Shown one piece after another: positions 12,697-57,670 of a stretch of DNA of 64,000 nt. Positions within the stretch are counted from its first letter, which is position 1. Each line of letters begins with the position of its first letter. Below the pieces are notes generated by a model. It had not been told where the DNA came from and made no database searches. It worked only from the letters and a program-made list of their open reading frames with translations. The DNA is from Clonostachys chloroleuca (lineage: Eukaryota; Ascomycota; Sordariomycetes; Hypocreales; Bionectriaceae). The stretch is from positions 27,528,001 through 27,592,000 of the forward strand of contig JBANAY010000003.1 of assembly GCA_037952775.1 (NCBI GenBank). The letters are read 5' to 3'. The translations under genes and the position numbers were made by a program.

Positions 12697-12875
12697 CAAA
12701 GTAGGGCTCGGTATGTATTATCCCCCCGCATATATTAAGTAATACATGCAGTTATACCATGAAGCCTAGTTCACAACCCTCCTAGAGACAACCAGATGTT
12801 AGTAAATTCTAATGTTAGGACTATATATTTGAGAGGGTAGAGTACTTATTTGACCTCCTGTGTAATATCTCTGAT

Positions 12876-13055: not shown

Positions 13056-13302
13056 CTTGAAGACTTGGATACTGGTTTTTGACTTAATAGGAGCGAGTTT
13101 TGATGTAGGCAAGGTAGTTGAACTGGTTGGAGTAGGTTGTGTTGGTAAAGCTGGCTACCCGGCGAAGGAAGGGCTTACATCACAGTATCTTTATACCCAG
13201 CTGGCTATTAAATATTTCAGCACCTCGTATTTATTCTTAGCTAGTATATACTTACCTATTAAAGTGCTTTGATACCACCTTCCAAAGGTGTGTAGCTGGT
13301 TT

Positions 13303-13417
13303 TCGAAAGTACTTCCTTATGTTGAAAGTACTTCCTTATGTTGAAAGTACTTCCTTATGTTGAAAGTACTTCCTTATGTTGAAAGTACTTCCTTATGTCG
13401 AAAGTACTTCCTTATGG
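13303..13417. repeat. 19-bp tandem repeat, six copies
   Basis: Six consecutive copies of TTGAAAGTACTTCCTTATG, the first and last with a C in place of the second T (CGAAAG). Each copy contains the 8-base palindrome AAGTACTT. It lies in non-coding sequence about 250 bases upstream of the small secreted protein gene on the minus strand. Confidence 0.9.
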
Positions 13418-14887: not shown

Positions 14888-15256
14888 ATGCGTCTGGACT
14901 GTTTTCTCTTCCAGGTTGCTCTCATGAGCCTGGCTGGTCTCGGTGTCGCCACGGAGCAGCCTCAGCTTGACGGTCGAGACCTCAACATCGACCAGCCTCA
15001 GCTTGAAGCCCGGGTCTTCACCCCACCTTCCAGATTCGGGACACGGCCTCCCACTGGGTTGCCAACGGTCGTCAACCGCGAAGTTGAGGAGGTTGACCTG
15101 GAAACCCGCGGCTTTTTCAAGGATTTGATGAAGAAATGCCAGAAGAACCCAAAGATCTGCGAGGCCATGGGCCTGATCATTAAGCCCGGAAAGCGCGATG
15201 TTGAGGAGGTTGACCCGGAAACCCGCAGCGATTTCAATGATAGTCGGAATATCTAA
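14888..15256 (+). CDS. Secreted protein with two VEEVDxETR repeats
   Basis: ATG at 14888 in a good context (ACAAG before it) gives 122 residues. MRLDCFLFQVALMSLAGLGV is a signal peptide. The mature part has a short repeat near the N-terminus (QPQLDGRD, QPQLEAR). Two copies of a VEEVDxETR motif follow: EVEEVDLETRGFF and DVEEVDPETRSDF, separated by a two-cysteine segment (KKCQKNPKICEAM). A KR dibasic site precedes the second copy, as in KEX2-processed precursors. The repeat-plus-dibasic layout resembles fungal repeat-containing secreted precursors, but no modifying enzyme gene (DUF3328 or similar) is nearby. The function is unknown; effector-like or processed-peptide roles are possible. Confidence 0.6.
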   Translation: MRLDCFLFQVALMSLAGLGVATEQPQLDGRDLNIDQPQLEARVFTPPSRFGTRPPTGLPTVVNREVEEVDLETRGFFKDLMKKCQKNPKICEAMGLIIKPGKRDVEEVDPETRSDFNDSRNI

Positions 15257-15368
15257 GGTCTCTGACCTCTTCGACCTGGTTAGCTGAGGGATCGGAAGGG
15301 AGGGCAGTGCAGAAGCTGGAAATGGCGAGCCCGAGGATAGCAATTGTCACAACCCGGGTGAAATTCAT
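15234..15368 (-). CDS. Possible 44-residue secreted peptide, antisense and convergent to the preceding gene
   Basis: The minus strand from ATG 15368 reads MNFTRVVTIAILGLAISSFC and then TALPSDPSANQVEEVRDLRY, with a stop at 15236-15234. The first 23 residues are a textbook signal peptide. The upstream minus-strand sequence is CT-rich, as in a fungal 5' leader. The short mature part carries VEEV, the same word found twice in the plus-strand secreted protein. The two open frames overlap tail to tail by 23 bases. It may be a real short gene, a gene with an unseen second exon, or a decayed inverted relative. Confidence 0.35.
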   Translation of the reverse strand: MNFTRVVTIAILGLAISSFCTALPSDPSANQVEEVRDLRYSDYH

Positions 15369-15714
15369 AAGTGTGAGGCGTATAAGAGATAGCGGAACTG
15401 AATGATAATCAGAAGCTGTGTTGGTAAATGCTGAAGATGGAGTAGGATTGTTGTGTCTTAATCTCTGTGCAATAACAAAAAGACATCATGGCTGCTGCAG
15501 CTCCTAAAATAAATATTAACTTCGAACTACATAGCAACCTGCTGCGACCGCTCCTCACCAAGCCCACGTCCGTTCAAGGGGGAGGAAAGTAGAAGAGTTG
15601 TAGTCCTATTGCCGATTGTTTCGTGTCACTCTAGTAGCCTTTGCGACATTCTCGTTTGTTTTGTTACATTTTCGGCGTGAGATTGGGATTATAGATATCT
15701 CTAGTGTCCGTTAA
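15369..15714. other. Intergenic, likely promoter for the minus-strand peptide and 5' part of the next gene
   Basis: Contains CT-rich sequence on the minus strand leading to 15368. An upstream exon of the F-box-like gene may also lie here, since that frame lacks an ATG. Nothing else is recognised. Confidence 0.35.
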
Positions 15715-16461
15715 TTTCTTCATCCGTACCCGAACGAGATTTTATTTTGCATTGTCGAAAATGTGGAAGGAAGGGATATTCAGTCGATGATTTTTACCTG
15801 CAAGACGATCCAGAAGAAACTTCTAGACAGCCATGTCGGGGCTCTTCGACTGAATAAGCGCTTTCCTGAATTTCTGGATAGCCATATCAGTACTCCACAA
15901 GTCATTGAGAAGCACCATATCCGTTCATTCCTGTCCTTCATCTATGGAGCAGTCATCTATTATAAGGACTGCAACATTTTGCCAATTTTCAAATCAGCAA
16001 TACAGATACTGGACTCTATTGGGATGAAGGAGATAATTATTCCAGCTGCTCTTTTTATGGGAATCGCAAAGGCAGAAGGACAAAAGTTTAATGAGGCCAT
16101 TTCACTACTCACATGGGCTGAAAAACAAATTCAAGGCATCACCTATCAAGGTGGACAAATGAATATGCCTCGCCGAATCACCGACCGCATTCGGGAGGTA
16201 TTCGCAGTTCGCCCAACGGACTGGGGAGCAGGGTGGGAGCATGTTGTGCCAATGATGACGTGGTATTACAGCGTCTACATGTGCCAAGCTCCAGTCCAAG
16301 CAGGCACCAGAAATGCGAGACGAATGAAGTTGTCGGGGGAAGGAGGGTCGCAAATCAAGCCATCGCCTAAGAAACAATGCGCATATGGCCTATCGGAAAG
16401 GCGGGGGAGTAGAAGGACATTAATACCGGTGAACTTTACATGGCGCTCCGGTCACATATAG
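15715..16461 (+). CDS. F-box-like protein, start exon not found
   Basis: The open frame runs from just after a TAA at 15712 to TAG at 16459 with no usable initial ATG. Its start, YPNEILFCIVENVEGRDIQS followed by FTCKTIQKKLL, resembles an F-box (LP-EIL--I---L---D----LTCK). A further upstream exon or lost start is therefore likely. The middle part is helical (FKSAIQILDSIGMKEIIIPA), and the last 70 residues are Arg/Lys/Gly-rich and unlike the rest, perhaps intron read-through. If functional, an F-box would recruit Skp1 for SCF ubiquitin ligation. A decayed copy is equally possible. Confidence 0.35.
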   Translation, partial: FLHPYPNEILFCIVENVEGRDIQSMIFTCKTIQKKLLDSHVGALRLNKRFPEFLDSHISTPQVIEKHHIRSFLSFIYGAVIYYKDCNILPIFKSAIQILDSIGMKEIIIPAALFMGIAKAEGQKFNEAISLLTWAEKQIQGITYQGGQMNMPRRITDRIREVFAVRPTDWGAGWEHVVPMMTWYYSVYMCQAPVQAGTRNARRMKLSGEGGSQIKPSPKKQCAYGLSERRGSRRTLIPVNFTWRSGHI

Positions 16462-17155
16462 TAATAACCGAGCTGTACTGGAAGATATAAACCATCCATC
16501 AAGGTCGAGTTGCCCGAGGCGTACAACGAAGCTGAACCCAGTCCCAACACAGTCCCCCTTTCTATACAGGCAAAACAGTGTCCTGATTGCATCAGTGATG
16601 AGTAATGTGAGGTCAAGTTCTTGGGAAGAGACCATTTGTTGGATATACCTGTCTGAGTATCCTCATTCGATGGGTTTGACATGCCAACATGGATTTCTAT
16701 TGCACAGCCGCGTCATCTGTTTATGTTAGCTGTATTCCGTAGAGTTCGTTGGCGAACATACAGGTCCAATTTCTTTCTGTCATTTCTTGGACTTCTGTTC
16801 GACAATCTCATGAAAGGCACAGCGGAGAGTTGGCTGTTCGTGTTTGTAGGTGAGCCGGCGTTGCCCTGCCTTGAATCTGCGAGTTTGTGTTTCTCGAGAC
16901 TGAATGATGATTACGTGCAGGAGTGTTGGTCTGTAGCGCGGCGTTTAGCCCACCATTATTTATTTCACGCACCAAAGCAGGTTATTGCAGCGCTTTGAGT
17001 TATTGTCCAACTCAACGCTCATGTGTCTTGTTATTGAGAAATAAGGTCAGGGTTATCATAGAGTATGGTGCATGCGTAGCGCTTGGTAGTTTTTGTGATA
17101 ACATCTTATAAATCCAAACAGCGTCGACTCCCTCCTTAATTGGGAATAGGTCTTT
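16462..17155. other. Intergenic, two short divergent open frames of unknown meaning
   Basis: Two ATG-started frames diverge from one CATG at 16679-16682: a 76-codon minus frame (16682-16452) and a 105-codon plus frame (16681-16998). Neither shows a recognisable domain, and codon content looks random. No repeat is recognised. Confidence 0.3.
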
Positions 17156-17943
17156 TTAGATACCCAGATCCTTCCCACGCCAGGTTGATAGAATCCTGTC
17201 GGCTTCCTGACGTGCCTTAGCAGCTGCTTCTGTGTCTAGCTTGATACAAGAGAGAGACTGAAACTCTGTATAGTGATCCAGGACATAGCGTCGAATTCGA
17301 GAGCCTACGGCTATGCTCTCAGACTTCAGGAAAGGTGAGGAGAAAAGCCGCTGGACTTCAGCCTTATCTTTTGATGGCATATGAGGGTATATCTTGTCCA
17401 ATTTTTGTGACCATTCTTGTTCTGCCGTCGCTTTTCTTGCATCGTATTGAGATTTAACCTTCTCAAAGATCGCTTTCGGGATATAGAGGCCGTATTGCTT
17501 CGCCAATTTCTTTTTACTCCGTGGGCGGTACTAAGAAGTTAAGTCCAGATCAATAGCAGATCACATTTACAGCTAAAAACCTACATATGCATATACCTTC
17601 TGTTCTGTTTCTTTAGACAGACGGCGACAGTGGCGAGTTATGAAAAGGTTACCAGCAGGAACGAATATGTACCCCAGTGGCGGGTACTGGCCATCAAACA
17701 AGATCTAGGTTTTATTAAATTAGCAATGGTATAGTAAGTTAAGTGAATAATAGGCTGCACCTCTTCGCCATATTTGTTTGAATAAACAATGTGGTCCGCT
17801 TTTTTAGCTCCGTTACTCCAACCGCCTAAGGGGGATGTCGCATGGTACTTGAGCCTAAGGATGGGGGTTGGAAGTTTTTTCACAGGCTGGATGGTAAGAA
17901 ATATTGCACTCAGTGTGCGGGCTAAATTTATTGAGCGAAACAT
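17156..17943 (-). CDS. DUF2293-domain protein, three exons
   Basis: Exons 17943-17761, 17704-17597 and 17530-17156 join across introns of 56 and 66 bases (GTGCAG...CCTAG with TGCTAAT branch; GTATAT...CTTAG) to give 221 residues. Exon 2 carries YPPLGYIFVPAGNLFITRHC, followed by RRLSKE. This is the conserved core seen in fungal DUF2293 proteins (GY-F-P-G---T--CR-L). Exon 3 carries the DUF2293 helical region (IYPHMPSKDKAEVQRLF, RIRRYVLDHYTEFQSL) and a stop after LSTWRGKDLGI. The domain has no known activity. The ATG at 17943 is the first in frame, but an extra upstream exon cannot be excluded. Confidence 0.75.
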
Positions 17944-18281
17944 ATCCTTAAAAGTTTATGTCAAGGAAGTCTTCCGGATGGTATCACTTAGTTGCGCGCA
18001 ACGTGTAATGCGGGGTTAAGGGCTGACAAAAAGTCGCTCTAATGCTTTGTCCGAGGCTTACCCGTCGCGAAAGTACCCGAATATCAAGATGGCTGGCTGT
18101 GTGAAGAGGTCAGGACGACGAATGCGTTTGTAGCAAACTATAAAGATGACCAGGAACGGCAGAATTTACCTTCTCGTGGGAAAAACACAGCTGCGCTAGA
18201 TCAGGTCTGGAACACTGTCCACGATCACTTTTGAAGAAGATGAGGATTTGGAGATATTCCCTTAGGTAAAGTCAGGTTAAA
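17944..18281. other. Intergenic, nothing recognised
   Basis: No gene, repeat or RNA is recognised between the DUF2293 gene start and the 3' end of the BTB gene. Confidence 0.35.
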
Positions 18282-19254
18282 TTAGTCCCTACACTTGCAC
18301 TTGGCACACCTAAGAGTATACACGGGTTCGAAGGATTGACCTCGCCGCTCAATATAGCATTGATATTCAGCCATACAGCTGTGGTTTCGACAAAACCCCC
18401 TTTCCCTCATCGTCTGGAGGCATCTCCCAATGTTCTCGATGATACGATCTACCCTAGCTTCCGCAGCTTGTCGTTTAGAATGCTCCTGTTCCAAGTCCAA
18501 TTGAAGTTGAATCACCTTGTACCGGTCTACCTCGGCCTTTTTGATACAGTTTCGTAGAACTCGAGTACCGAAATCGCCAATTATATCAGCAAAGTGATCG
18601 ATTTCGAGGAGTGTGTGGATATTCTTTGCTGCTTCGGTAGCTATCACCTCATGCAAAGCCCCATCGCCTGATAGGCCTAGGGCGCCATTTGTAGCGTCCA
18701 TAAATGACTGCGCATCCCAAGTAGCTTGGCAAGCTTGCTGGAATTTGGACCTGGAGAGCTCGGAAAGTCGTTCTATGTTGTAGTAGTCTGCAATTGCATT
18801 GACTTGTACGTGTTGGAGCATCATCCCACTTGCCGTGATGTCATTCAAAGCCGGCTTCTTTGTCTCATCAGACCGTGATGCTATACTAGTGTTATTCAAA
18901 CAGTTACTAGAGCACGAGAAGGGAGGCCGCGGCACCTTCAGTGTGTGGGAATAATAGACCACCATAGTCTCCTATGTATAAAAACTCCACCATTCGGCTG
19001 ACTGTACTGGGCTCGAAATTTTCGATGTTGATAATACCCGTCCTCGACTCCTATATACTAGGTTAGTCGCCATATTGATCCGAGTAAGCTCCTCCTACCT
19101 GGAAGACCCCTTGAATAGCCTTGGCGAGCACTGGAGATTGTGTGCACACGACGACTTTGTGTACTTTGAATTCGCATCCTTGGCACACCAGTTTCATATC
19201 AGAGTACTCTCCAGAGCCGACTACGCGGCTAAGCTCAAGATGTCCGAAACTCGT
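18282..19254 (-). CDS. BTB/POZ-domain protein with frame break, 5' end unresolved
   Basis: The minus strand encodes a BTB core: SDMKLVCQGCEFKVHKVVVC (around 19200), then TQSPVLAKAIQGVFQ. A 48-base intron follows (19098-19051, GTAGGA...ACTAAC...TAG), then SRTGIINIENFEPSTVSRMV and EFLYIGDYG. Downstream, in the next frame (18965-18282), are YYNIERLSELSRSKFQ and a long helical C-terminus ending in a cysteine-rich CRNHSC...RCAKCKC motif, as in many fungal BTB proteins. The switch of frame near 18950 is not explained by any intron I can find, so a frameshift is likely; without it the protein ends shortly after GDYG. The first exon and ATG are not identified. BTB proteins mediate dimerisation or Cullin-3 contacts. 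Confidence 0.55.
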
Positions 19255-19680
19255 CGTTCCTGTGTATCAGTCTGTGTATCAAATATTCGAAAAGCCCAGG
19301 TGCATCTCTGCGGTGCGGGGTAGACTTTGTCACAAGCTAGAGCTTAGTCACAACAACAAATTAGAGGCTGGGGGACCCACCAAAGAGTGGCAGGCCATGA
19401 ATGGTACTCAAGAATCTTCCATGGAACCCATTGTCTGGAAGCAGGTCCTCCCTGGCACTTGGCGCTCATTGAACATATGAAGTGTATCCCAAAGAACCAG
19501 GACCAAAGGCATCGGGCCGCAAGCCGGGACCGTGGTCGGTGTTGGATGACGCCACGCATCCCAGGTTGGGATCCCGCTGAGTCTCTCACAGCTTAGCGGC
19601 TGCTTGCCTGGAACTAAAGCACGAAACGGCCTGAGCAGCAAGCTATCGCACCTGCGCAGTGCCGAGCCGCTCAATGGCTA

Positions 19681-19710
19681 AACAAAAAATAAAATAAAAT
19701 AAAAATAAAG
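19681..19710 (+). repeat. A-rich (AAAAT)n tract, possible retroposon tail
   Basis: AAACAAAAAATAAAATAAAA and further AAAAT units follow a GC-richer segment of about 350 bases. This is what the 3' end of a non-LTR element looks like. No target duplication was found. Confidence 0.45.
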
Positions 19711-19936
19711 AAGACCCGCAGATGCCACCTGCCTTTAACCAGGCGCCTGGAGGGTTAGCGCCTCATTCCGAATGGCATTGGCTGACCTAGAATCAGGCTC
19801 CTGGCTCAGCCTCAAGGCCCAAACTCTGGGCCAGCTTATCTTAGATACTGGGACCAAGCAATAATCGTTCGTAAACTACCAGTCCCCCAGATTTCCCTTT
19901 GCTTAGATACTGGTACCATATTATTTAATTTTATCT

Positions 19937-20060
19937 AGTACTAGTATCAAAATACTGTAGTTTTTTCGGTCCTAGTATCCAGACGCTGCAATTTAACTTG
20001 AACCAGTATTCAAGCGCTATAAATTACCTGGCCCTGGTATTATCCGATACTGGTATTGGA
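19937..20060. repeat. Degenerate ~32-bp tandem repeat, about four copies
   Basis: Copies begin TAGTATC/CAGTATT, continue with CGCT or ACTG and an AAATT-like block, and recur every 31-33 bases: 19937, 19972, 20003 and 20034. Related GATACTGGKACC words lie just upstream at 19844 and 19906. The array is strongly mutated. Confidence 0.5.
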
Positions 20061-20388
20061 AAACCTACGTAGGGCGTGGGCATCTTCAAGGAGATAGACA
20101 AGCTTACAACGTCTTCCCATAGTCCTGCGACACTACGAGGTTATGCCTACAATCAGTTGCTACGCTGGATCGTGTACGATTTGCCAAGCGTTCACGCGAG
20201 CTTACAGTATGGCCCTCTCCCCTCATCATCACAGGAGACCGGTCCCCCTTTAGGGACCGCCAACGCCTTTTCGGAGCGAGTTAAGAGCTTAGGAACAAGA
20301 CGCTTGTCTCGTGAAAGAGTGAGCCTGATACAAGTACGTCTATTATGAAGCCCTTCCTCAAGACATTTCCATTTCCCAGAAACATTCG

Positions 20389-21211
20389 CTATTTGAAAGT
20401 ATCTCTGCAACGAACCATTTGTTGTATTTGCAAAATGCCTGCCTTGATGGCGTCAATGACATACAGAGCCTCGCCCATGCGCTTCCCTAAGAACTCGGTT
20501 GCGGTAGAGCGGACGATGTCCTCTAATTCGGCCGTTACGATGCAACCTATAACCACGCATCGAGCCGAACTTGACTGAAGTAATTGCCCTGTTGCTTCCC
20601 TTATACCATTTTTCATATCCTCTTGAGAAATGGCATTTGGATCGGGGCTATACGATTTCGCTGAGAAGACACCGGCGAATCTGTCGTTACTACTATTCTT
20701 GTCCTGACCCAGAAATGACTTAACTTCAACCATAAGATAGCTCTCCCAGAAGTGGTCCAGTGTGACAATTCCCCATTTGTCATTACTATCTGGGCGTAGT
20801 AGTGTCTGGGCCGTTAAAATGCTCGCTTCAAAGACCCCCATGATACATTCAGGGCCAAGATTGGACAATTTTGAAACTAGAGATTTGGTACCAAAGCCGG
20901 CGATGAGGACAGCATCGTAGTGAGCTAATGTAGGGCCATCTTTTGATATTCTCGAGTAGACAGTTTCTTCGCTTATCTTGATGTCGCTGTAGCTAGTTAT
21001 GCTTAACGGAGATGGCTGTGGCGTTGTATAGGCACTGAGCTCCATGGACTATAGTTGTGGTCAGCTTGTCGGTCCCTTTGACGTGTGTTTCCAGGCGGTT
21101 TCGCACATGGCCCAACTGCATTCTGTCTATACTTGCTACTATCGCCGCAGTTATTGCCTCTGAGGAGTTGGGGTTGATAATGAGGATACGAAAAGTCTGG
21201 CGTGGATTCAT
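20389..21211 (-). CDS. Asp/Glu/hydantoin racemase-family protein (DCG1-like), two exons
   Basis: Exons 21211-21107 and 21048-20389 join across a 58-base intron (GTGCGA donor, CTGAC branch, CTATAG acceptor), giving 254 residues. ILIINPNSSEAITAAIV near the N-terminus is the family's opening strand and Asn-Pro-Asn-Ser motif. SITSYSDIKISEETVYSRI, MGVFEAS and CVVIGCIVTAELEDIVR are further family blocks. Racemases of this superfamily use two catalytic cysteines. The second (VVIGC) is present, but the first position (usually IACFSD-type) reads LIAGFGTK, with Gly instead of Cys. Racemase activity is therefore doubtful; a different reaction or loss of function is possible. Yeast DCG1 relates to allantoin metabolism. 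Confidence 0.75.
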
Positions 21212-22502
21212 ATTGCCGAGATGGTGTCCTCTTGACCGCTTGAAAAGATATTGACAGACTTGTTGGATTGTAGTACTGTCAAAAACTTATCACCTGGTCC
21301 AATTGCTCCTGGTTTATAATTTCCTTCTTACATTCTGTGTGGTTGACATGCTGATGACGTGAGGCAAACGTCAAGTTGTTTTGCTAACCAACGCCAACTC
21401 CACCTCTCGCCCTAGCCATTTTACTCTAACCATGCCCGTTTTCCGCGGCTAGTAATAGTGGAGTCCAACCATCAGCAGTCATACATTGGATATCAGCACT
21501 TATGGCGGACTATAACATCAGTTTCACATGTCAGCAAGCTTAGATGAATTATGACGTAAGTTTAATGACCCCTCCACGATCGATAAGCGCTTACCGAGGA
21601 TGTGGGGGGAAGGGTGGGTGGCAATGTATCGTGACCGTTTTAGATAAGCATTGTATACTTTATTCTCCCTAAGGGAAACTACATTTATTTGCTTTTGTAT
21701 ATATTAAACCAGTGGCGTTTAACAGCCCCGCCTCAGCAGCACCATATATCCTGCAATGGAATCCCAGACAAAAGGACATTGTGAGGCAAGTAAGTATATA
21801 TCCTTATTCTCCAATAAAGCGCTAAATACCTAACGTTCCCCGAGGCCAGAAACCTAATAACAGAGCAGAGCGCCTCCAAGAAATCTATGGAAGGACACCA
21901 CATCGAGATCTCCTTAACCATCAGTTGGATGTACGTATATATGTGCTTCACCCTAAGCACCCTCCTAATCATCTCTTGGTCTCATTCTGGTATAGTATTA
22001 ACTGTATATAGGAAAGAAGGTATTTCGATTCTGGTGACTTTGCCCTTTCGCAAGCCCAGAGGGGTTCCGATATTGGAAAAATCAAAACCGGAACCCAACA
22101 CCCACGCCGGGAGAGTATATCTCATCCAAGAGCTCCCATGCCAGACTCTAGTAATGCTGATGAGAGCGCAAACAAGGGTCTGCAAGACCAGGAGAAAAGT
22201 AGCGAGCCACAGAATCAGAGCCACCTCCACGAAATGGCGCGCTCGGAGAATGTGAAGCCGTAGCGCTGGATATATGATATCAGTAAATCTATTTTAGCAG
22301 ATAATCAAGATCTACAGAGGCGCCGGGTGGCCGTCCAAGGGAATAGGACGAAGCGGCTGGCATGGCGCAAACCGTGGCGCAAACCGTGGCGCACGGGTTG
22401 TGGCGCAGACGATTGAACGAAGGAGGGCGCGGAAGAAAGAACCTTTTCGTTCCTCAAAGGCATTTGATACCTATGGGCTAGTGCACGTGATACGAGCATC
22501 CC
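21212..22502. other. Intergenic 1.3 kb, short GC-rich repeat near its right end
   Basis: No gene recognised; hydrophobic open frames at 21733-22255 are not convincing. At about 22356-22400 the word TGGCGCAAACCG and variants (GTGGCGCACGG, GTGGCGCAGACG) repeat four times. If the neighbouring recombinase belongs to a giant element, this is the downstream side of its gene. Confidence 0.4.
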
Positions 22503-25021
22503 TCATTCCCATTCCCCGTCAACATCGTCACCGTCATCTATATTCGCCGTTGACTTAATAATCGCTCCTTTTTTGTCCCCATCATGCACACTCTGCACAT
22601 GCTTGACCCAGTCTCTAAAGCCAGTGATGAAGGCCGGGTGGCTTCTCCCTTGCCTCAAACATTCGGGACATGGACCTTTGTAGTCATCCTCGTTTGAGTG
22701 TCTCTGCCGGAAATGCAAGACAAAGCCGGAGTCAGAGCACACCTTCGTACATAAGGCGCAGTACGCCTCAACTCTGATCCATTTCGGGTTTGGGGCTACT
22801 TCGCCGTGACCTCGTTCCACGTGACTGCTCCAACTGGCAGGACTTTTGATCTTGGCGCATTTTTGTTTGCCCGCCCTCCGGCATTCAGGGCAATCAAATG
22901 GTTCACGGAACATGTCGGTGTGAGCACCAGCCACATGTCTCGTTAGGTCGCAATTCCGACCAAACCTCTTGCAGCATATCAGGCATCTAATCCTTCGCGA
23001 CAAGCCCCCTGGTAGCTCAATTCCTTTCAGGTAGCGAACGACGTTGTTCCATGTAGATATAGACCAAGGCTCGTTCACTACATGTGGAGCGAGTTCTGAT
23101 GCGTCCCTGCTGCTCTCCTTGTTCATCTTGCGCCTCGGGTTTGTTGCAAGCTCGTCGCGCAAATGCATCGTGCTCTGCCCCGTTGACCGAAGTAGATTGA
23201 CCTCTTTGAAGTAATCGCCCCTTCGTTGTTTGATTCGAAGGTCGTCAAGAGTTCGTAGAATGTATGCTATTCGGCCCGTAAGCTTCTTGGCCTCTGTGGA
23301 GCTGGAAGTGCCCTTCTCCTTTGCTTCTCGCTGCAATGCTCGTAAGCGTCTGATATCATTTCTCTGCTCAAACATGGATACATCATCGGGTGTGATGTAG
23401 GTAGGTGCAAATGGGTCGCTTTGAGTGAACGAATTATGAAGCCGCTTCAAAACAGCGTCCGTCTCACCAGCGGCCGGACCAAACGCGATTTTCATCAAAT
23501 TTTCCCGGACGTGGACAGGCTGATAGCTCTTTTCGAATACATCGGTGGAGTTGGACAGTATGAAGTTCCGTAGCGCTCCTGTAAGCGTTCCGTCTAGACG
23601 TCCGCCAGCTCCTACTCTCATGGCAGAAGGTCGCGGGTTGTCGCGCTGGCCAGCCACCAGCATCGCTATGTTCCATAATTCCCAGTACTGGTGATAGGTG
23701 ATAGGGATGATAGGCTCATCGAGCATGTCTTCCCTCCACTCCAGCGGAGTATAGTCGATTCCCTCCTCGAGTGTTCCCGGCTGAAGCACTTCATCTATTG
23801 ATGAACACCCCGTCCTGAAGGCGTCATCAGCAATGGCTCTGCTGGCTAATAAGCTGAGAAGACAGAGTAACGGGGAAGGTATAATCGTTATCGGGAATTT
23901 GAGTCTAACATGGTTCGGTTAGTCATAGACGAGGCCACCATGCTGGCAACTCTGGAACTCACATATGGCTCTGGTCCCGTTTCACTTTGCAGGTAGCTCG
24001 TTTCACGTGGCGAATCGTTATGTCAGCCACCGGCCACGTCTTTTGAGGATCGATGGGATCTCGAAGCCAACCGAATTGGACATCCCTGTACTTCACCCCC
24101 ACCACGCTAGCAGGCCTCCAGCCACCTATTCCAGCCAGGAGGATGGCACTATGGAATGCGACTCGCACTCCAGGACTGCACGGTATAGCATCTGCCCTCA
24201 ACCAGACCGTTCGCAGAAGCGATATGACATCCCCTTCTGTCATCTCCCTCTTCTCGAATGTTTGCTCGAGAGTCAGCCCGAGCTTGACAGCCAGCATTGG
24301 AATTTCCTTTCGTAGATGTTAGTAACCTTGTTATTGCAACATTTGATGAGATAAATACCCACTTGTCCGACTGCATAGGTAGCCTTGTTCCCGGTAGCCT
24401 TATGTCGAGACGAGTAGGTGAGTGACCAGATCACGGCTTGGCCGTTTTCGTCCTTGATCCTCTTCGGCTGCATTACCATGTCGTCGGCGACTTTAACGAG
24501 AGCCGCCCATACGTCCTGGAGGGTTGCTGCGGACTGTATTGTAGGCTGTTTGACCCATTCTTCAGGGCCGAGGACAGGTTTCCAAGTGACAGATTGCATT
24601 ACAAAGTGTGAGAGAAACACAATGCAGCGATCCATTGCGGCCTTTTGACCAAGGGCGAAGTCAACCCATATTGCCTCAGGGTCAAATCCGATAAGGCCGG
24701 CATACCTGTCCGGAGTTTAGCAACTTCTCACACGCGAAATGGCAGCTCTACTCACTTTTCCCACTCCTTCCACACTCTCTGCCTTAGCAATTTAGTCTTT
24801 GGGTGGACATGTGCGAAGATGTCCCTTTCCGCTTCCTCCCGCTGTTGTAGCATGCCGACAAGTCTCTCGGTATATCCACCATCTAGCTCGCTGCTTGAAG
24901 AGCCAAAGTCTGGAGGGTCGTTGGCTGCGATGCTTGCAGAACCAGGCGGTTGAAGGTTGTTGCCTGCTTCCAGGAGAATAATTTCCCTTGGTGAGGCTAC
25001 GTTGGAGCTGCTGATCGTCAT
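22503..25021 (-). CDS. DUF3435 tyrosine recombinase (Starship captain-like), four exons
   Basis: Exons 25021-24756, 24705-24363, 24306-23963 and 23904-22503 join in frame across introns of 50, 56 and 58 bases with CTAAAC, CTAAC and CTAAC branch sites, giving 784 residues with no stop. Family blocks in order are WKEWEKYAGLIGFDP, LLAGIGGWRPASVVGVKYRD (box I arginine, near residue 266), PSPLLCLLSLLASRAIADDAF, SAMRVGAGGRLDG (second arginine) and FEKSYQ (candidate tyrosine nucleophile near 446). The usual GH before the tyrosine box reads SNS here, so one catalytic His may be lost. The C-terminal 180 residues hold several C2H2-type fingers (CLICCKRFGRNCDLTRHVAGAH and others). DUF3435 proteins mobilise Starship elements and are usually the first gene inside the element, reading inward; here that would be leftward. 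Confidence 0.85.
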
Positions 25022-25586
25022 GATCTCTTGAAGATAGTGTCTGTCTCAAGTCTGAAAATAATGGTGTTGATCGAATAACGAAGTCTGAGAGGCTTTGGCG
25101 GGAGAAGAGGAAAATCCCTCAGCGAGTTTTGGTCGGAGTCAGCTTCCGGTCTATGTCTCTGTCCGCCATGGTGGCGGTTCTCTCAGGTGCCCACGGCGAC
25201 ATGGTCCTAATTAAGGCCCATGAGAGGCGGGGGTCCAATGCACACAGCCTTCATTGCGTCCAGCGCTTACCAGAAGGTAAGGACGGGCTCCTAAAAGAAA
25301 GGGAGGGGGTGTGTATATTGGGGCCCAGTCCATTTCTACAACGGATGGTTGCACTCACAAACGGCAGACCTGGGAACTGGTGAAGTTGTGCAAAACGGTC
25401 GTCGCGGATCGATGGCCGTCTGGGGGGACTGGGATGGGTAAACTTCGGGGAAAACCCATACCTGAACTCGACAAGAAACCCCGTCCGCTCTCGCCTAGTT
25501 AAACGGATGAGGGGCGGATTAGTAGTTGGGTCGGTGACGACCAGCGAATACCTGCTGTTGTATGTCTATGCCATTTCTTTTTTTAT
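25022..25586. other. Upstream region of the recombinase gene; candidate element edge
   Basis: Holds the recombinase promoter and then GC-rich sequence with no recognised gene. A 5'-truncated methyltransferase pseudogene begins at about 25587. If the recombinase belongs to a Starship, its 5' edge should lie in this interval. I could not identify the short direct repeat or inverted ends by eye. Confidence 0.35.
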
Positions 25587-26263
25587 GGTCGTACGACTCG
25601 ACATCTCATTTGACGAAACGCCTCCGGTTCAGATACTGCCGTCCAACGTGATAATACTTAGACATTCGAGTGTTGAGTAGGACTCCCGTCGACCCCATCG
25701 GTGTATTTGATATTGTCCACGTGCGCTTCTTCGGTTTTGTCCTTCTTGTTGATGACGTGCCGAGTGTTATCGAGAGGCTCTACAAGATGCTGAGTAAGTA
25801 CGTAACACTAGTCCTAGATATATATTTTGATGCCGAGAGCTCAAGATACATAGAGCCCGGTGGCTATCTGCAGTGGGGCGACCCGGACATCGAGTCAATC
25901 CGGATTGATAGGGCCAACACAGAAGCTAAGACTGAGAGCCTGGCCGACATGTTCAAGCTCCTAGCGGTCCAAGATCCACGCCTCAAGCCTACGTGGGTAA
26001 CAAACCTGCCCAACCTCTTCTCTGCGGCAGGCTTCGTGGACATCGAGGCGGACAAGAACGACCGCCCCCCTCACTAGGCGTACATTTTGCACGAATCCAG
26101 GCTCATGGACCATGAGCTCATCCACCGCAAGACTAAGAATGAGAAGATGCAGCAGGAGCTCGGTCGACTGCTGCCTCTTGCCGTTGAGGAGACTAGGACT
26201 AGTGCCTCCGTTACAGCGGTGCGATGGACCATGGTTGGGAAGAAATCTGCTCCATGGGCCTAG
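25587..26263 (+). pseudogene. SAM-dependent methyltransferase, 5'-truncated and broken
   Basis: Recognisable class I methyltransferase sequence: VVRLDISFDETPP, then in another frame VFDIVHVRFFGFVL and VIERLYKML. A retained-looking 60-base intron follows (25794-25853, GTAAGT...ACATAG). After splicing comes KPGGYLQWGDPDIESIRI, then PTWVTNLPNLFSAAGFVD. A TAG at 26075-26077 interrupts the frame, after which the family C-terminus continues (HELIHRKTKN, LLPLAVEETR, VRWTMVGKK) to a TAG at 26261. The N-terminal SAM-binding half is missing and there is a frame change near 25677. This type of methyltransferase is common in fungal secondary metabolism (LaeA-related fold). Truncation beside the recombinase may mark an insertion or deletion end. 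Confidence 0.7.
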
Positions 26264-27150
26264 AGACTAGTATTGTGAAAGTATATTCCGGAACATGCGG
26301 GAATTCTCATTGTCACGAAATACTTTTGCCTAATGTACAGTCTCTTCAGAAATTCATTACCTGCACATTTCTTTCTTTATTGTTCAAAATGGCCAGTGTC
26401 CTTCCACCGTCTCACGTCCCAGCTGGCTGTAATGGATCTCTGCCACGGCCCTGTCGTCTTGGGAAGGCCGCTGACCTAAGGGTAGTAACAGCCTTGGTAC
26501 AGATATCTTACGTCATCCTTGTAGGAAACTGGGACAAGATGACTTGAATGATTTTCTCTATGATGCCGTCTCTTTGGTCGGAGCCCAATATTTAGTTGCA
26601 GCCGCTGACATGTGCTATCGCGATGTGGTATAATCATGTGACCCTTCCTTCTTGAGAAAAGAGACTTCCTAAACTCCGTGATGCCGCGGTTCAACAACTT
26701 ACATGTGAAAAGTGGTTTGGCGCGTGGTTTTAGTACTCGCAAGTAGTTGACTTCTGGCATTGCACACGAAAATAGTGCTTTGATCTCCTATTTTACCAAA
26801 CGCCTCATTCTTACAGCTTAATAAACCAGCAATTGATATTTTCGTCTTAAAAAAGATGTCACTATAGTATTTATATCCCTAAGAATAATTTTATGCCTTT
26901 AATATTATATGATTCCAATAAAGGTCGGCTGTTGAACCGGGCAGCAAAAAGGCCTATAACTTCGGCAAGAACACTTGGCCACAAACGTACGATTGTTGAC
27001 GCACTACCCACACCTGTCCCGCTGTCCCGGTATTCTTCTGCCGACGGTAGCAGCTGTGCCTGGGGATATGGAGGGTTTATAAAGAGGCCCCGACGCCCAT
27101 TTATTGATAGCAAAGCAGTAATCCATCAGTATTTAATCCGGTCTTCGACT
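26264..27150. other. Intergenic, promoter side of the oleate hydratase gene
   Basis: No further gene recognised. An in-frame ATG at 26893 would extend the oleate hydratase by 86 residues, including a low-complexity basic part, but family members start near 27151, so I treat 26893-27150 as leader. Confidence 0.45.
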
Positions 27151-28908
27151 ATGTACTACAGCAGTGGCAATTACGAGGCGTTCGCCAGACCGCTCAAACC
27201 GGATGGCATTGATACCAAGCATGCCTGGATCGTCGGCTCTGGATTGGCAGGCCTCTCAACTGCAGCGTTTTTGCTCCGGGATGCCCAGATGCCTGGAGAA
27301 AACATTACCATTCTGGAAGAATCACACCTCCCGGGCGGTGCATTGGACGGACTTGACATCCCCGAAAAGGGATTCGTTATCCGCGGTGGACGGGAGATGG
27401 AATCTCACTTCGAGTGCCTTTGGGACCTTTTTCGTTCTGTTCCATCTATTGAAGAACAAGGTGCGAGCGTTCTCGACGAGTTCTATTGGCTGAACAAACG
27501 CGACCCGAACATATCACTACAAAGGGCCACCGAACGACAAGGTCAGGACGCTGACACCGGTACTCTCTTCACATTAAGTGACAAATCACAGAAAGAAATG
27601 ATCAAGTTATTCCTCGCCACACGGAAAGATGTCGAAGACAAAAGAATCGACCAGGTTTTTAGTGGGGACTTTTTCAAGAGCAATTTTTGGCTATACTGGC
27701 AGACAATGTTCGCCTTTCAGACGTGGCACTCCGCGTTAGAAATGAAACTATACCTTCACCGGTTTGTTAACCACATTCAAGGACTGCCCGACTTCTCAAC
27801 TCTCAAGTTTACCAAATTCAACCAATATGAGTCGCTCGTTCTTCCGCTACGAAATTGGCTTGAATCACATGGGGTGAAGTTTCAGTACCACACGAAAGTG
27901 TTAGATGTGGACTTCAAAAGGACAGTGAACGAGAAAGAAGCGACCAGAATTCACTGGTTGGAGAAGGGAAAGGAGGGCGGGCAGGACCTCGAGCTCAACG
28001 ACCTCCTTTTCTTGACCATCGGCTCCCTCACCGAGAACTCCGACCTCGGGGATCATCAAACCCCAGCTGTTCTAAGGGAAGGACCGGCTCCTGCCTGGGA
28101 CCTTTGGCGACGAATTGCCGCCAAAGACATGGATTTTGGACGGCCAGAGGTGTTTTGTGGAGATATTTCTCGAACAAAGTGGCAATCCGCGACAGTGACG
28201 ACACTCGATTCGCGTATTCCACAATATATTCAGAAGATATGTCGACGAGATCCTTTCAGTGGAAAAGTGGTGACAGGAGGTATCGTTACCGCGCGTGATT
28301 CAAACTGGATGATGAGCTGGACCGTCAATCGTCAGCCACACTTCAAAAAGCAACCCAAGGATCAGATTGTTGTCTGGCTATATGGGCTTCTCGTCGAACA
28401 GCCCGGAAATTACGTCAAGAAGGCCATGCAAGAGTGTACCGGTGAGGAGATCACACAAGAGTGGCTGTATCACTTGGGCGTTCCCCAATCAGAAATATCC
28501 TCGCTGGCCGCTTCTGGTGCGAGATGCATACCGGTCATGATGCCTTACGTCACGTCCTTCTTCATGCCACGCAAGAAAGGCGATCGGCCAAGCGTCGTGC
28601 CAGAAGGGGCACGCAATTTTGCCTTTATTGGGCAGTTCGCCGAGACGACGAGGGATACGATATTCACCACAGAATACTCCGTACGGACTGGCATGGAGGC
28701 AGTGTACCAACTCGCAGGAGTTGATCGAGGAGTGCCGGAAGTTTTTGCATCGACATATGACATTAGGCACCTGCTCCGCGCTGCTTGTAGTCTGCGAGAC
28801 GGAAAGGAGCTGGCCACTTGGGTACCCGACAGGATACGGAAACTTCTCGTTGAAAAATTAGAAGGTTCCGAGGTCGGACAGTTATTGCATGAGTATCACC
28901 TCATCTAA
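27151..28908 (+). CDS. Oleate hydratase (MCRA family FAD enzyme)
   Basis: ATG at 27151 gives 585 residues without introns, the usual family length. MYYSSGNYEAFARP is the family's start. IVGSGLAGLSTAAFLLRDA (residues about 27-45) is the dinucleotide-binding glycine motif. EESHLPGGALDG and RGGREMESHFECLWDLF carry the conserved FAD contact and the Glu of GGREM used in catalysis. Later blocks are FQTWHSALEMKLYLHRF, QYESLVLPLRNWLE, PYVTSFFMPRKKGDRP and FAFIGQFAE. The enzyme adds water to the cis-9 double bond of oleic or linoleic acid to give 10-hydroxy fatty acids. Such genes are bacterial in origin and scattered in fungi. No neighbouring lipid gene explains its presence. It appears intact and functional. 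Confidence 0.93.
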   Translation: MYYSSGNYEAFARPLKPDGIDTKHAWIVGSGLAGLSTAAFLLRDAQMPGENITILEESHLPGGALDGLDIPEKGFVIRGGREMESHFECLWDLFRSVPSIEEQGASVLDEFYWLNKRDPNISLQRATERQGQDADTGTLFTLSDKSQKEMIKLFLATRKDVEDKRIDQVFSGDFFKSNFWLYWQTMFAFQTWHSALEMKLYLHRFVNHIQGLPDFSTLKFTKFNQYESLVLPLRNWLESHGVKFQYHTKVLDVDFKRTVNEKEATRIHWLEKGKEGGQDLELNDLLFLTIGSLTENSDLGDHQTPAVLREGPAPAWDLWRRIAAKDMDFGRPEVFCGDISRTKWQSATVTTLDSRIPQYIQKICRRDPFSGKVVTGGIVTARDSNWMMSWTVNRQPHFKKQPKDQIVVWLYGLLVEQPGNYVKKAMQECTGEEITQEWLYHLGVPQSEISSLAASGARCIPVMMPYVTSFFMPRKKGDRPSVVPEGARNFAFIGQFAETTRDTIFTTEYSVRTGMEAVYQLAGVDRGVPEVFASTYDIRHLLRAACSLRDGKELATWVPDRIRKLLVEKLEGSEVGQLLHEYHLI

Positions 28909-30018
28909 CAAGCCATTTATTGGGAGGCCAGAGTAGATACAGGTGTAGTAGTAAACTAGCACGACTACCTATCAAGGATGCTACGTCGCCGCCTTCAGCT
29001 CGCTTAATTAATAGTAAGAGAGAAGTAAACTTAGATCTTAGCGGCTCTTATTTTAAATACTAATCATTTTGGCAATCCTGCGAGTAAAATTTCGTCCACG
29101 TACTCTCATGAAATCTTCGCAGTTTTCACGACAAAGAACGTAAAAACCAAAGCACAAGCCGACGATGGTGCTACCGAGGTGCCGACCATAATAATAAATG
29201 AGACGACCCCGGCCTACGAAGGGGAAAGGCGGACGGGACGAAGGATGTGCAAATGACCGTCTGGCATTGCAGTTCAACAAGCTCCTAGAAACCGCTCTAA
29301 AGGATCACAACCGCTTCCCTCGAACCCGGGTTCTCATTACGTCCTTCAACGTCCTTGTGGCACGCAGGTGAATTAGCAGGCAGGCCACAAGATGACATAA
29401 GCGTTGATCATGAGATGCGTGTTTTTAACTCCTTGATAAACGATGGAAATATGGATGGCCGCTGCCATCAAGGAGTTACAGCTCTGCTCACTTCACACGT
29501 GTAACGGCCCGGTGACTTGCACCGGGCGTGTCTAGGGTAGGTCAGGGATAGCTAAATGGAGGGGCCGGGATATGGATAGGTTAGTATACGGGATGGGCTG
29601 TCCCATGGAAAGGCTCCTTTATAGTTTTAAACTTGCCCTTCACCATGTCTCTAATTCATATAGGTATAGCGGGATGGAAAGTCATCATAATGCACGGGAA
29701 GTAGGAAAGCATGAGGTCGCTAGCAACCTATAAAGATGAGCAACCAGGAAAGCCGAGGTTACTAGCAACCTACCTAACCCAATTATACTACAAACTAGAA
29801 AATAAAAAGAATAAGAGGTGAATGGCATCTAGGAAGACATTTTACACCCCTTCTTACTCCCCCCTTTTTTTCTTAAGTAAAAAAATCCTTTCTATCGTAG
29901 ATTTCCTTGTGATTAAGCTAATGGGCAAGGGGAGATTTCTTACTGACCAGTTGCTGTCTTCCGTCCATGTCACGTCACGTTCCCTCAGTACGTCCTCATT
30001 TGTTTCTTTGCTAATTAC
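28909..30018. other. Intergenic 1.1 kb with an 11-bp inverted repeat and LTR-like sequence
   Basis: A perfect inverted repeat (AACTCCTTGAT at 29427-29437, ATCAAGGAGTT at 29467-29477) is followed at 29500 by TGTAACGGCCCGG, which resembles a Ty3-type LTR start, with a TATA-like CTTTATAGTTT at 29618. No matching CCGTTACA end or target duplication was found, so any LTR is truncated. No gene is recognised. Confidence 0.4.
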
Positions 30019-31290
30019 TCATGGACTAATAATAGCCCGTCTCTTTAATACAGCAGAGTTCGCATTCAAGCAAGACCAATTATGCGCATCGAGGCAAGCT
30101 TGACGACTGAGCAGAACTGCTGCACTCGTTCGCTCCCTGACTTCGGCCTCATAGTCTTCTATAGCCTCCTTCAGCCCTTTGCCGTTCTTGTGCACCTCTT
30201 TCAGTGCCTCCCCTAGCATATACGCGTCAAGAATACCATGGTTGGCAGCCTCCCCTCGGTACATGGTCATGGCATGGCCGGCATCCCCTGCCAGCGTCAC
30301 CTTGCCACCGTGATTATCCCAGTCGAGGCACGGCCAGTCCTGCAGGACAATCTCGAGCGTTTCTGAGCCGTCTGGGATGGCATGCACGGCGTCACGGAGT
30401 ATGGGGTGAAACTCTTCTGCCCGCCGCTTCATCTCGGCCAGCCTCCACTCGCTGGACGGCTTCACCTCGTCATCGGGCGTCCTGACGGGCCAGGAGATGT
30501 TAATCTGGAGGCGGTACCGTTCCTCGTCGGTACCTTTGGTATTGTTGACCTCTGGCGACTCCAGCAGGCTGACCCAGAGGAAGTTGCCGCTGACCGGGTG
30601 ACACCCCTGGAAGAGTAACGGGTCAATGTCCCTCAGCGGCTTGACTTTGGCTGGCGTGAAGTCGGCGGCTGAGCCGACGAACCTCACGGGCAGCCGGTTG
30701 TTCCTGTAGGTGTCGGGAGCGACGAACCGTCTGGTCCGCGAGTTGTTCCCTTCAGCGCCCACAATCGTGGCACCCTCTGCTCTTGTGCCGTCGGTAAACA
30801 CCGCGACCACGCCGTCCTCTGATTCTTCTATGGAATCTAGACGCTTGTTCCAGTGCACCCGATCGGCCACTTCTTTGAGCAGAACGTGTCTCAGCTTTTC
30901 CCGGTTGACGCGCCGCCGCTCGTTGGGCGGGATTCGGAACTTTGGCTCAAGCGTCTCGAGATTGATAAAGACGAAATTGCCGGTGTCGACTCGGCCGGTG
31001 TCGGGGTCTACTTGGACAGAGTCGATGCCTCTCAGAGTCTCGGGTGAAACCATCTTTCTCAGAAAGGGCAGGACCCAGTGCAGAGTGATGGCCCAGCCTT
31101 GGCCGCGAACGGAGATGTGCTCATCGCGTTCGTAAATTTCGAAAGGGATACCTGCCTTGGAATAGTCAGCCTCAGTGTGATGAAAGACGGTGTAATTTAA
31201 GTCAATAAAAGTCCTCGTTACCTTGTTAAGACTGTTGGCAAGTGATAGGCCGACCACTCCAGCACCAATGATGAGAACAGGCTTGGTCAT
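30019..31290 (-). CDS. FAD-dependent monooxygenase (aromatic hydroxylase type), two exons
   Basis: ATG at 31290. MTKPVLIIGAGVVGLSLANS holds the GxGxxG FAD motif. The segment from 31221 to 31156 reads as 22 extra codons but has intron ends (GTAACG...GCTGACTATTCCAAG). Removing it joins LANSLNK to AGIPFEIYERD, the normal family spacing, giving 401 residues. VTLAGDAGHAMTMYRGEAAN is the GD motif that contacts FAD ribose, with MYRGEAANHGILDA after it. The family hydroxylates or epoxidises small aromatic or polyketide substrates using NAD(P)H and O2. It shares a 627-base divergent promoter with the alpha/beta hydrolase and is the left edge of the presumed cluster. The substrate is unknown. Confidence 0.88.
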   Translation of the reverse strand: MTKPVLIIGAGVVGLSLANSLNKVTRTFIDLNYTVFHHTEADYSKAGIPFEIYERDEHISVRGQGWAITLHWVLPFLRKMVSPETLRGIDSVQVDPDTGRVDTGNFVFINLETLEPKFRIPPNERRRVNREKLRHVLLKEVADRVHWNKRLDSIEESEDGVVAVFTDGTRAEGATIVGAEGNNSRTRRFVAPDTYRNNRLPVRFVGSAADFTPAKVKPLRDIDPLLFQGCHPVSGNFLWVSLLESPEVNNTKGTDEERYRLQINISWPVRTPDDEVKPSSEWRLAEMKRRAEEFHPILRDAVHAIPDGSETLEIVLQDWPCLDWDNHGGKVTLAGDAGHAMTMYRGEAANHGILDAYMLGEALKEVHKNGKGLKEAIEDYEAEVRERTSAAVLLSRQACLDAHNWSCLNANSAVLKRRAIISP

Positions 31291-31917
31291 CTTGCACCAG
31301 CTGCTTCGGCTCTCGAGAAGAGTTGATGGTGAGTTGACAACATACGCCGCTGGCCCGACTTATGCAAATACGATGCAACGGTGAATCGGTCGCTGATGCA
31401 CCCGGATCAACATAGACAGGCAATGCTTGATACTTGGACTTTGATCACATGCTGGGGAGAGAATAACAATCCACGCCAGTCTGAAGCGTGAAGCCCTCAC
31501 GGAGAGGTAGAAAGATACGACGGACGGCACAAGGACACACAACACTAAGATGATGCGTCATATGCAGCCGTCGGATCGGGCGGGCCTGGGGAATAGATCC
31601 GCTGCGATTAAGCCAATGAGGTAAAGACAGTAAAGACACTGGCGGCTTCACGAATCAGCGACGGGCGTTCCATTGCGACGGGACAATCTCCACTAATGGC
31701 TGGCCGTAGATGGTCGGATGGAGACCCGCGAACTTACTCCTCACATGTGCGCTGCCGTCCATCATGGCAAGCTCTGTGTTCCACGCGGTCGTCGGCATAA
31801 CCTGACTTGATGCCTTTGCATATTTCTTGCTTGCCAATCCAGCGCAAATTCCAGCTACCCATCATTAAAGCCCATCTATCTATTCAATTGACGGAGCAAT
31901 CAATCAATTGAAACACC
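31291..31917. promoter_or_regulatory. Divergent promoter between monooxygenase and hydrolase genes
   Basis: Six hundred and twenty-seven bases separate the two divergent starts (31290 minus, 31918 plus), so shared control is likely. No gene lies inside. I did not find a clear palindromic regulator site. Confidence 0.5.
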
Positions 31918-32964
31918 ATGGCTGCCGATTCCAGGCACGAGGCTCTCCAGCCTATCCACCCCTCGATGGCCGGCAAGCTAGACCCTGTCTTCGAGAAGCT
32001 CTACAACGACAACGTGGCCAACACGCCGCTGCGACCGATTGACCTCGACGTCCTGCGCTCAAAGTACTCGGTCCTCTACTCGTACGGCACGGGACCAGCC
32101 CCAGACGTAGCCAAGATCACGGACGCAAAGATCACAACCGACGAGAGCATCACGCTCGACATCCGAGTCTACCAGCCCGAGGGGTCCGGGCCCTGGCCTG
32201 TCCACATTGACTACCACGGTGGAGGCTGGGGCCTGGGCGACCTTGACACCGAGAGCCACATCTGCAAGCACATTTGCAAAAAGGCGGGCGTGGTGGTCAT
32301 CGACGTGGCCTACCGCCTCGTGCCCGAGAACGCCTTCCCCTGCGGCGTGACGGACAGCTTCGCGGCCCTCAAGTACGTCTACGAGAAGGGCGCTGACGAG
32401 TTCAACATTCTCCCGCGGAAAATCTCGGTCGGCGGCGTCTCGGCGGGTGGGTTCATCAGCCTGGCCATCGGACATATGGCCCGCGACGCAGGCATCCCGC
32501 TCAAGCTCATCGCTGTGGGGACGCCGGTCATTGACGACCTGAGCCAGTACGCCGCCGCCGCCGACTCGCCCTTCCCCTCCATGCAGGAGAACGAGCATGC
32601 CCCGACGCTCAACTGGGGGCGCCTCGCCTGGTTCGACAAGCTCAAGTGGAGCTCCGTGGGCGGCACGCCCGAGAAGATTGCCGCGGAACGTGCCAAGCTG
32701 CCCGCCTTTTACGCCAACCTGTTCAAAGCGGAGAGATTTGAAAACCTCCCCAAGACGGTCATCTACACGGCGGGCACGGATCCTCTGCGGGACGAGGGCG
32801 AGGCGTATGGAAGGAAGCTCATTGAGAATGGCAACGAGGTGACGTTGAAGCGGTTCCCGGGCGTGCCTCATCCGTTTATGCACATGGACAAGGACCTATG
32901 GCAAGCGAGCGAGTTTATTGATTGTACGGCGAGGGAGATTCGGTTGGCGCTTCATGATGGGTGA
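31918..32964 (+). CDS. Alpha/beta hydrolase, HSL/arylacetamide-deacetylase-type esterase
   Basis: ATG at 31918 (AACACCATGG context) gives 348 residues without introns. YHGGGWGLGDLD (residues 99-110) is the HGGG oxyanion-hole motif of the hormone-sensitive lipase family. VGGVSAGGF holds the nucleophile Ser175 in GxSxG, AGTDPLRDEG holds the likely Asp288, and GVPHPF holds His318. These complete the triad. No signal peptide is present, so it is cytosolic. Such enzymes cleave short-chain or aromatic esters and lactones. It sits between two FAD monooxygenases and a regulator, so a role in opening an ester or lactone intermediate is a reasonable inference. Coding GC is high and long antisense frames are by-products of that. 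Confidence 0.92.
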   Translation: MAADSRHEALQPIHPSMAGKLDPVFEKLYNDNVANTPLRPIDLDVLRSKYSVLYSYGTGPAPDVAKITDAKITTDESITLDIRVYQPEGSGPWPVHIDYHGGGWGLGDLDTESHICKHICKKAGVVVIDVAYRLVPENAFPCGVTDSFAALKYVYEKGADEFNILPRKISVGGVSAGGFISLAIGHMARDAGIPLKLIAVGTPVIDDLSQYAAAADSPFPSMQENEHAPTLNWGRLAWFDKLKWSSVGGTPEKIAAERAKLPAFYANLFKAERFENLPKTVIYTAGTDPLRDEGEAYGRKLIENGNEVTLKRFPGVPHPFMHMDKDLWQASEFIDCTAREIRLALHDG

Positions 32965-33428
32965 TAGACGATGACCGAGACTTGCAAATTACTACGAATG
33001 CCTACCTAGCTATGTATATAATCATAAGAAAAGCAAGGGCTTGGTGAACTACATTTAACTCAGTCATTAGTAGGATGTCTACACCACATCGATGTAATTC
33101 TACACCACGTATGTTATTATCTGAGTATATCTATAACATCGACGAAGTGACCCCATATAGGCCATTAGTTACGCGACTGCTACTACGTAAACTAGCTTAT
33201 CTAAAAGACCGGCTTGACCTGAGCGGCTTGGGTCGGTAGAGATAAAAGATCGCCACTAGGCCTATCTCGAATATGTCAGCAGATGTTGATAACTAGGGCG
33301 TTACTGGGAATGCGGAGAGCCCCAGTCTAAAGAGTCTCCCAGTCCCCAACCCTTCCCCCTCCTAGGTCACTGGCACGTATTAAAGCGAACCACGCCTCAA
33401 TTCCCCAACTGTAGGAAAGAGGAGCAAC
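32965..33428. other. Intergenic between hydrolase and regulator
   Basis: AT-rich first half and GC-richer second half; likely terminator of the hydrolase and promoter of the regulator. No gene recognised. Confidence 0.4.
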
Positions 33429-48869: not shown

Positions 48870-48927
48870 TGGTAATGCAGAAACTCTGTAATCTTGGGTT
48901 GCCTGACAGTTCTTTTTACGAAAAAGA

Positions 48928-57630: not shown

Positions 57631-57670
57631 CTTCAAAGCCTCTAGCCCTTGATAACAATTCTCCAAACCC

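Follow-up and report, generated by a model that had tools for sequence, protein, structure and literature searches.

The window, which is the whole 64,000-nt stretch of Clonostachys chloroleuca DNA analysed here, carries a four-exon minus-strand gene for a DUF3435 tyrosine recombinase (Table 1). In-silico splicing of the exons gave an open frame of 784 aa with no stops, as an earlier note on this DNA had proposed, and the three introns were 50, 56 and 58 nt long with GT-AG borders. The frame of exon 4 matched Pfam DUF3435 (E=4.5e-11, 42.8 bits; cut-off 25.8), and the frame of exon 3 gave a further match to the same family (1.1e-5, 25.0 bits), slightly below the curated cut-off of 25.8. The recombinase boxes GWRPASVVG, AMRVGAGG and FEKSYQ, also named in the earlier note, were all present in the translation. 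The C-terminal array of C2H2 fingers described there was upheld in part: pairs of Cys and His were visible in the C-terminal sequence, but a Pfam scan of the protein returned no zinc-finger family, and PDB sequences gave weak matches alone, the best of them (E=0.038) a zinc-finger protein. The suggestion that the gene might be a captain, the lead recombinase of one of the giant fungal transposons called Starships, was borne out when both ends of the element were located, and the gene is called the captain below.

The captain-side end was traced through two close-copy captains on contigs C4 and C3 (C3 is the contig of the window; C4 and C1, where used in coordinates, are other contigs). When 100 kb around each was compared, the window was found to share with them an upstream 56-bp piece at which homology starts abruptly. 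A 25-bp pattern taken from this homology start occurred 57 times in the genome with up to 3 mismatches and proved to be the end of the 5S rRNA gene on its 3' side, in reverse complement. A 5S match was placed by Rfam at 25450-25566 of the window (34.4 bits, below the gathering score of 38), and an intact genomic 119-bp 5S gene aligned to the window by BLAST only from about its position 25 onward. The captain-side edge falls within a 5S rRNA gene, at 25479/25480, and the ATG of the captain is at 25021. The missing 5' part of the 5S gene was found 94 kb to the left, beyond the window, at C3:27459490-27459528, where it adjoins an intact tandem 5S gene. The pair thus consists of a 5' half at C3:27459490 and a 3' half that ends at C3:27553565.

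The first six bases of the 3' part are CCCGTC, a direct repeat whose far copy lies at C3:27459523-27459528, and the edge with a short direct repeat that had been expected near 25.0-25.6 kb was thereby found. Read on the 5S strand, the far-side junction joins GATCCCGTC to AAGAACTTG and the captain-side junction joins GACAAGAAAC to CCCGTCCGCTC. CCCGTC stands at both junctions; in the longer repeat, AACCCCGTC on the captain side departs from GATCCCGTC on the far side at 2 of 9 bases. Joining of the two flanks restored a 119-bp 5S gene of the same length as intact copies, which matched one intact 5S gene at 114/119 positions and the tandem neighbour at 115/119, while those two matched each other at 113/119. 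The terminal inverted repeat (TIR), with 8 matches in a 9-bp motif, is weak taken alone because 116 of 2000 shuffles scored as high; its spacing from the direct repeat is that of the clear TIRs of sister elements. Base composition by itself does not mark the edge: G+C was 0.42-0.50 over 1-22 kb and 0.48-0.59 over 26-43 kb, but 44-48 kb was as G+C-poor as the cargo.

Table 1. Positions of the features of the window, of the sister elements and of further candidate insertions in 5S genes. Positions without a contig name are those of the window.
Feature	Position	Strand	Details
Captain (DUF3435 tyrosine recombinase, 784 aa, 4 exons)	22503..25021	-	Splicing, Pfam, relatives; terminal gene of the element, transcribed inward
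Captain exons	25021-24756, 24705-24363, 24306-23963, 23904-22503	-	
Element, captain-side 25.5 kb	1..25479	-	Of roughly 93,951 bp (C3:27459529-27553479); remainder left of the window
Weak 9-bp TIR, captain-side copy CTTGTCGAG (far side CTTGTTGAG)	25467..25475	-	Shuffle test
5S rRNA 3' part, 86 nt	25480..25565	+	Captain-side outer flank; BLAST with intact 5S, junctions, Rfam
Chromosome flank outside the element	25566..64000		Beyond the 5S junction
Cys-rich accessory gene region	4189..5136	+	Main ORF 4218-4721
CHAT-TPR gene region	6174..9314	-	Three same-frame ORFs separated by single stops (introns or decay)
BTB/POZ domain stretch	18970..19215	-	Pfam E=5.2e-6
2,234-bp putative mobile segment	20231..22464		Asp/Glu racemase ORF 20389-21048 (-)
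Sister element A	C4 at 3.83 Mb		87.8 kb between 5S halves
Sister element B	C3 at 15.43 Mb		178 kb
Sister element D	C3 at 23.37 Mb		68 kb
Sister element C1			271 kb
Candidate 5S insertion, 73.5 kb	C4:1906400-1979948		No subfamily captain detected; carries element A far end
Candidate 5S insertion, 69.6 kb	C3:36977257-37046896		No subfamily captain detected; carries element A far end
Candidate 5S insertion, 28.2 kb	C3:22082698-22110893		No subfamily captain detected
Candidate 5S insertion, 6.2 kb	C3:27674543-27680746		No subfamily captain detected; carries element A far end
Candidate 5S insertion, 4.8 kb	C3:22841065-22845845		No subfamily captain detected

The far end of the element recurred once in the genome, with 94% identity, at C3:8558354-8558475, where it abuts an orphan 5S 5' half at C3:8558481. 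The captain-side 456 bp had no second copy in the genome, so recurrence applies to the far end only. The captain side of the second far-end copy was not found, and positions 300-20200 of the window gave no match near that copy at C3:8.558 Mb among the 39 of 159 candidates that were scored. Within the element interval no DUF3435 match besides the captain was detected.

To map broken 5S genes genome-wide, the two halves were searched with two patterns that allowed up to 3 mismatches (57 hits for the 3' end and 51 for the 5' end). There were 37 complete genes, 36 of 119 bp and one of 122 bp, and the orphans comprised 20 3' halves and 14 5' halves, some of which may be diverged 5S genes in view of the mismatches allowed. 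Ten pairs of orphans, that of the window among them, stood in correct order and orientation within 300 kb. Seven of these paired insertions exceeded 60 kb, and a captain of the same subfamily was detectable in five. Pairing of broken 5S genes also detects insertions without a detectable captain of this subfamily. As the target is a fixed multicopy gene, one assembly is enough to find the ends of an element once the 5S halves are paired, with no need of a second strain.

Searching the genome with the window protein revealed six loci of the captain subfamily, among them the two close copies on C4 and C3; two short fragments, of 31 residues at C3:13611136 and of 41 residues at C1:5875392, were excluded from this count. 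A 5S 3' half lay directly upstream in five of the six. The remaining locus, C3:14070822, had no 5S half and counts against the pattern. As a control, 39 Pfam DUF3435 matches were grouped into 24 loci. A broken 5S 3' half was present within 2 kb upstream at 4 of them, all of this subfamily, and none was found within 20 kb of the other 20. Four sister elements with related captains, A, B, D and C1, split 5S genes at the same site as the window element. TIRs were clear in the three of them that were scored (D 1/2000 shuffles, A 0/2000 and C1 0/2000), and their terminal sequences differed from one element to another. The far end of element A was present at nine places including itself, seven of which abut an orphan 5S 5' half. 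The captains of A and B have open frames of 799 aa with a dN/dS of 0.27 between them; the annotated captain of D, P0014 (C. chloroleuca V2G26_010767), stops after 449 residues, and that of C1 is riddled with stops. The intervals of B and C1 each contain a second, different DUF3435 locus. Many fragments of the window cargo and several DUF3435 loci cluster at C3:12.9-15.5 Mb, a region that resembles an accessory-rich compartment.

Cargo had been predicted in the 0-22 kb to the left of the captain. The side was correct, but about 68.5 kb of the element lies beyond the window. The CHAT-TPR and BTB genes assigned to this cargo were confirmed, whereas DUF2293 was not recovered in 1-19.9 kb: six-frame Pfam scans of 1-10000 and 9901-19900 gave none at E<=0.001. 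The scan of 20-25 kb covered single ORFs only. The CHAT part of the CHAT-TPR region gave a weak match, well below cut-off, to the Csx29 TPR-CHAT model. A DUF3723 gene is located inside the element at C3:27517708-27518628; DUF3723 was also present in A, D and C1 and absent from B. Patatin was not found inside the window element.

The main ORF of the Cys-rich region had no Pfam match at E<=0.05 and no NCBIfam match at E<=0.01. Homologous DNA was present in all six other paired 5S insertions larger than 60 kb (126 bp only in B) and in at least four places outside paired insertions; among the matches listed, it was in none of the three shorter paired insertions. The dN/dS of this gene was 0.28-0.35 over 107 codons (window element, A and D), and the gene is, judging from sequence comparison, under purifying selection. 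The segment next to the captain was 99.3% identical to one within element A, which is on another chromosome. An uninterrupted site for the segment is present in element B, as is a head-to-tail junction of its two ends, and no clear target duplication was seen at the site of the segment. It resembles a small mobile element that carries a gene, and may be Helitron-like. Outside the element, 26851-41338 holds a gene of the oleate hydratase-like MCRA family, followed by two FAD monooxygenase-like genes, a Zn2Cys6 regulator, an MFS transporter and an epimerase; these genes are possibly a metabolite cluster.

A protein search with the captain returned at least 10 relatives at E<=0.001, nine of them named, a lower bound since only the 7,997 candidates that share most words with the captain were scored. 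They include proteins of Fusarium, Trichoderma, Metarhizium, Dactylonectria and Purpureocillium, all genera of Hypocreales. The closest among the matches listed was P0001, this same gene as recorded in a different C. chloroleuca entry; it keeps the frame, with 4 differences over 449 residues. With A1 as query, a profile search recovered eight proteins at E<=1e-10, all previously found. In a tree of 15 rows the window captain was separated from the A-type and D captains by long branches (support 100/99), and P0003 was the row nearest to it with weak support (80/71). The fact that captains on both sides of this split sit in 5S genes suggests that the clade may have acquired 5S targeting early.

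Catalytic residues were compared in an alignment of 17 rows, consisting of the window captain and P0001-P0016. R267 was conserved in 16 of the 16 rows that cover the site, K305 in 15 of 16 (P0011 has E, as do the A-type captains at the K position), and R414 and Y445 in all 17. Position 411 was Ser in the window captain and P0001 only, and Tyr in all 15 other rows (P0002-P0016). The captain also lacks the C-terminal tail with an FW motif that is present in P0002-P0006 and in captains A and B. The earlier note had doubted catalytic competence from the SNS found in place of the GH motif. The doubt is real, but its cause is S411: the His position of the motif (N436 in the window captain) varies among relatives, with N in 10, Q in one and H in six of the 17 rows, and because 11 rows thus have N or Q, the GH site was rejected as the anomaly. 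In the Sanctuary paper the captain active site is given as R, A, K, Y, R, Y, and both tyrosines are reported to be necessary in HhpA (PMC12506042). With Ser for Tyr at 411 and the FW tail missing, this captain copy may be inactive although its frame is open, and the present mobility of this copy of the element is doubtful because the Tyr reportedly needed in HhpA is Ser here. A structure model of the relative P0002, built from 9 rows, had a mean pLDDT of 62.8 and a pTM of 0.49. Its best PDB matches were Cre chains (best E=2.3e-3, none <=0.001), and pLDDT was below 50 over residues 370-434, which surround the nucleophile; with matches this weak and low pLDDT there, the model cannot settle catalysis.

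Taken together, the gene is very probably the captain of a roughly 94-kb Starship inserted in a 5S rRNA gene. It would recognise both termini of the element, together with a 5S target around GATCCCGTC, and would insert the element as a single unit by Cre-like tyrosine recombination; insertion would leave a direct repeat of 6-9 bp and disrupt that 5S copy. This reading is favoured by orphan 5S halves 94 kb apart whose order and orientation match, by junction bases and a 119-bp joined site that fit one 5S gene, by the far end that recurs beside another broken 5S gene, and by the DUF3723 gene, the sole DUF3435 gene in the interval and the Cre matches of the P0002 model, weak as they are. It is also favoured by the 5S half at 5/6 subfamily loci against 0/20 other DUF3435 loci, an association that argues against an isolated, non-captain DUF3435 gene that merely happens to neighbour a broken 5S gene. 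Solo DUF3435 genes are described as common (PMC12134995), but with the far end found this explanation could stand only if the far junction had been misassembled, and we regard it as extremely improbable. The captain reading is weakened by the single captain end, the weak TIR and the repeat that differs at 2/9 bases, as well as by S411, the missing FW tail, the subfamily locus without a 5S half and the absence of patatin. The empty-site comparison drew on intact 5S genes of this one assembly, as paralogous empty sites only.

That the far end is copied elsewhere and the captain end is not would also be expected if the two ends came from two elements nested or fused at one 5S gene, and the second DUF3435 loci enclosed by B and C1 indicate that nesting is possible in this genome. 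Against this, the repeat and a TIR-like motif occur at the two ends with corresponding spacing, a single 5S gene results when the flanks are joined, and only this DUF3435 gene was matched inside the interval; such a composite is very unlikely. A Starship whose captain is now catalytically dead, and which was moved in the past by an ancestor of this captain or by a related captain in trans, is a serious possibility that we hold just short of evenly balanced. S411 replaces a Tyr that HhpA is reported to need (PMC12506042) and that all 15 other rows keep, the FW tail is missing, and the genome has intact captains with the same 5S target and with all of these residues apart from K, which is E in the A-type ones. 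On the other side, the frame is intact over 784 codons and is kept at 445/449 residues in the second C. chloroleuca record, and the differing terminal sequences of the sisters speak against easy action in trans. Broader still, and rather unlikely in our judgement, is the proposal that the clade is a 5S-homing Hypocreales lineage in which this captain lost the auxiliary Tyr and either uses Ser or has sister captains act for it in trans.

Starships are reported to range from 15 to about 700 kb (PMC12134995), and the 93,951-bp element that we assign to the captain falls in this range. Other Starship features were found as well: a DUF3435 gene that leads the element from its 5' end and reads inward, short direct repeats on either side, and DUF3723, which with FRE, PLP and NLR is among the accessory gene families usual in Starships. 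TIRs are often present in Starships, though some lack them. Captains of known elements resemble the window captain in part. HhpA of Hephaestus and the Sanctuary captain, the latter of 786 aa with a C-terminal DNA-binding domain, are likewise Cre-like with R, K, R and a nucleophile Tyr, but their second Tyr, Y381 in HhpA and Y424 in Sanctuary, corresponds to S411 (PMC12506042). The Hephaestus target is listed as TTAC(N7)A (PMC12153272), unlike the 5S site of the window element.

The Osiris Starships of the Enterprise family in Aspergillus fumigatus are described as captain-led elements that insert in 5S rDNA and fragment it, with listed mean lengths of 38-138 kb and repeats of >6 bp typical of 5S targeting (PMC12153272). 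The window element is also captain-led and inserted in 5S rDNA. The host of Osiris belongs to a different fungal order from that of the window organism. Voyager of Macrophomina phaseolina carries DUF3435 and DUF3723, and Starships are reported to insert in 5S rDNA, with AGAATACAGGGC as the Voyager target (PMC10128009). The window element shares both genes and the reported target gene but differs in the repeat, GATCCCGTC/CCCGTC in place of AGAATACAGGGC; we infer that the site used by Voyager lies next to this one in the 5S gene. We take the window element to be a Starship with both boundaries defined, apparently from Clonostachys, a genus in which our literature search found no report of Starships. 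The system offers tests of the need for the auxiliary Tyr and of 5S homing in related captains. 5S-targeting Starships are already known in Osiris and Voyager, and the window element is a further one; a single genome allows its two ends, some of its cargo and several of its sister elements to be read.
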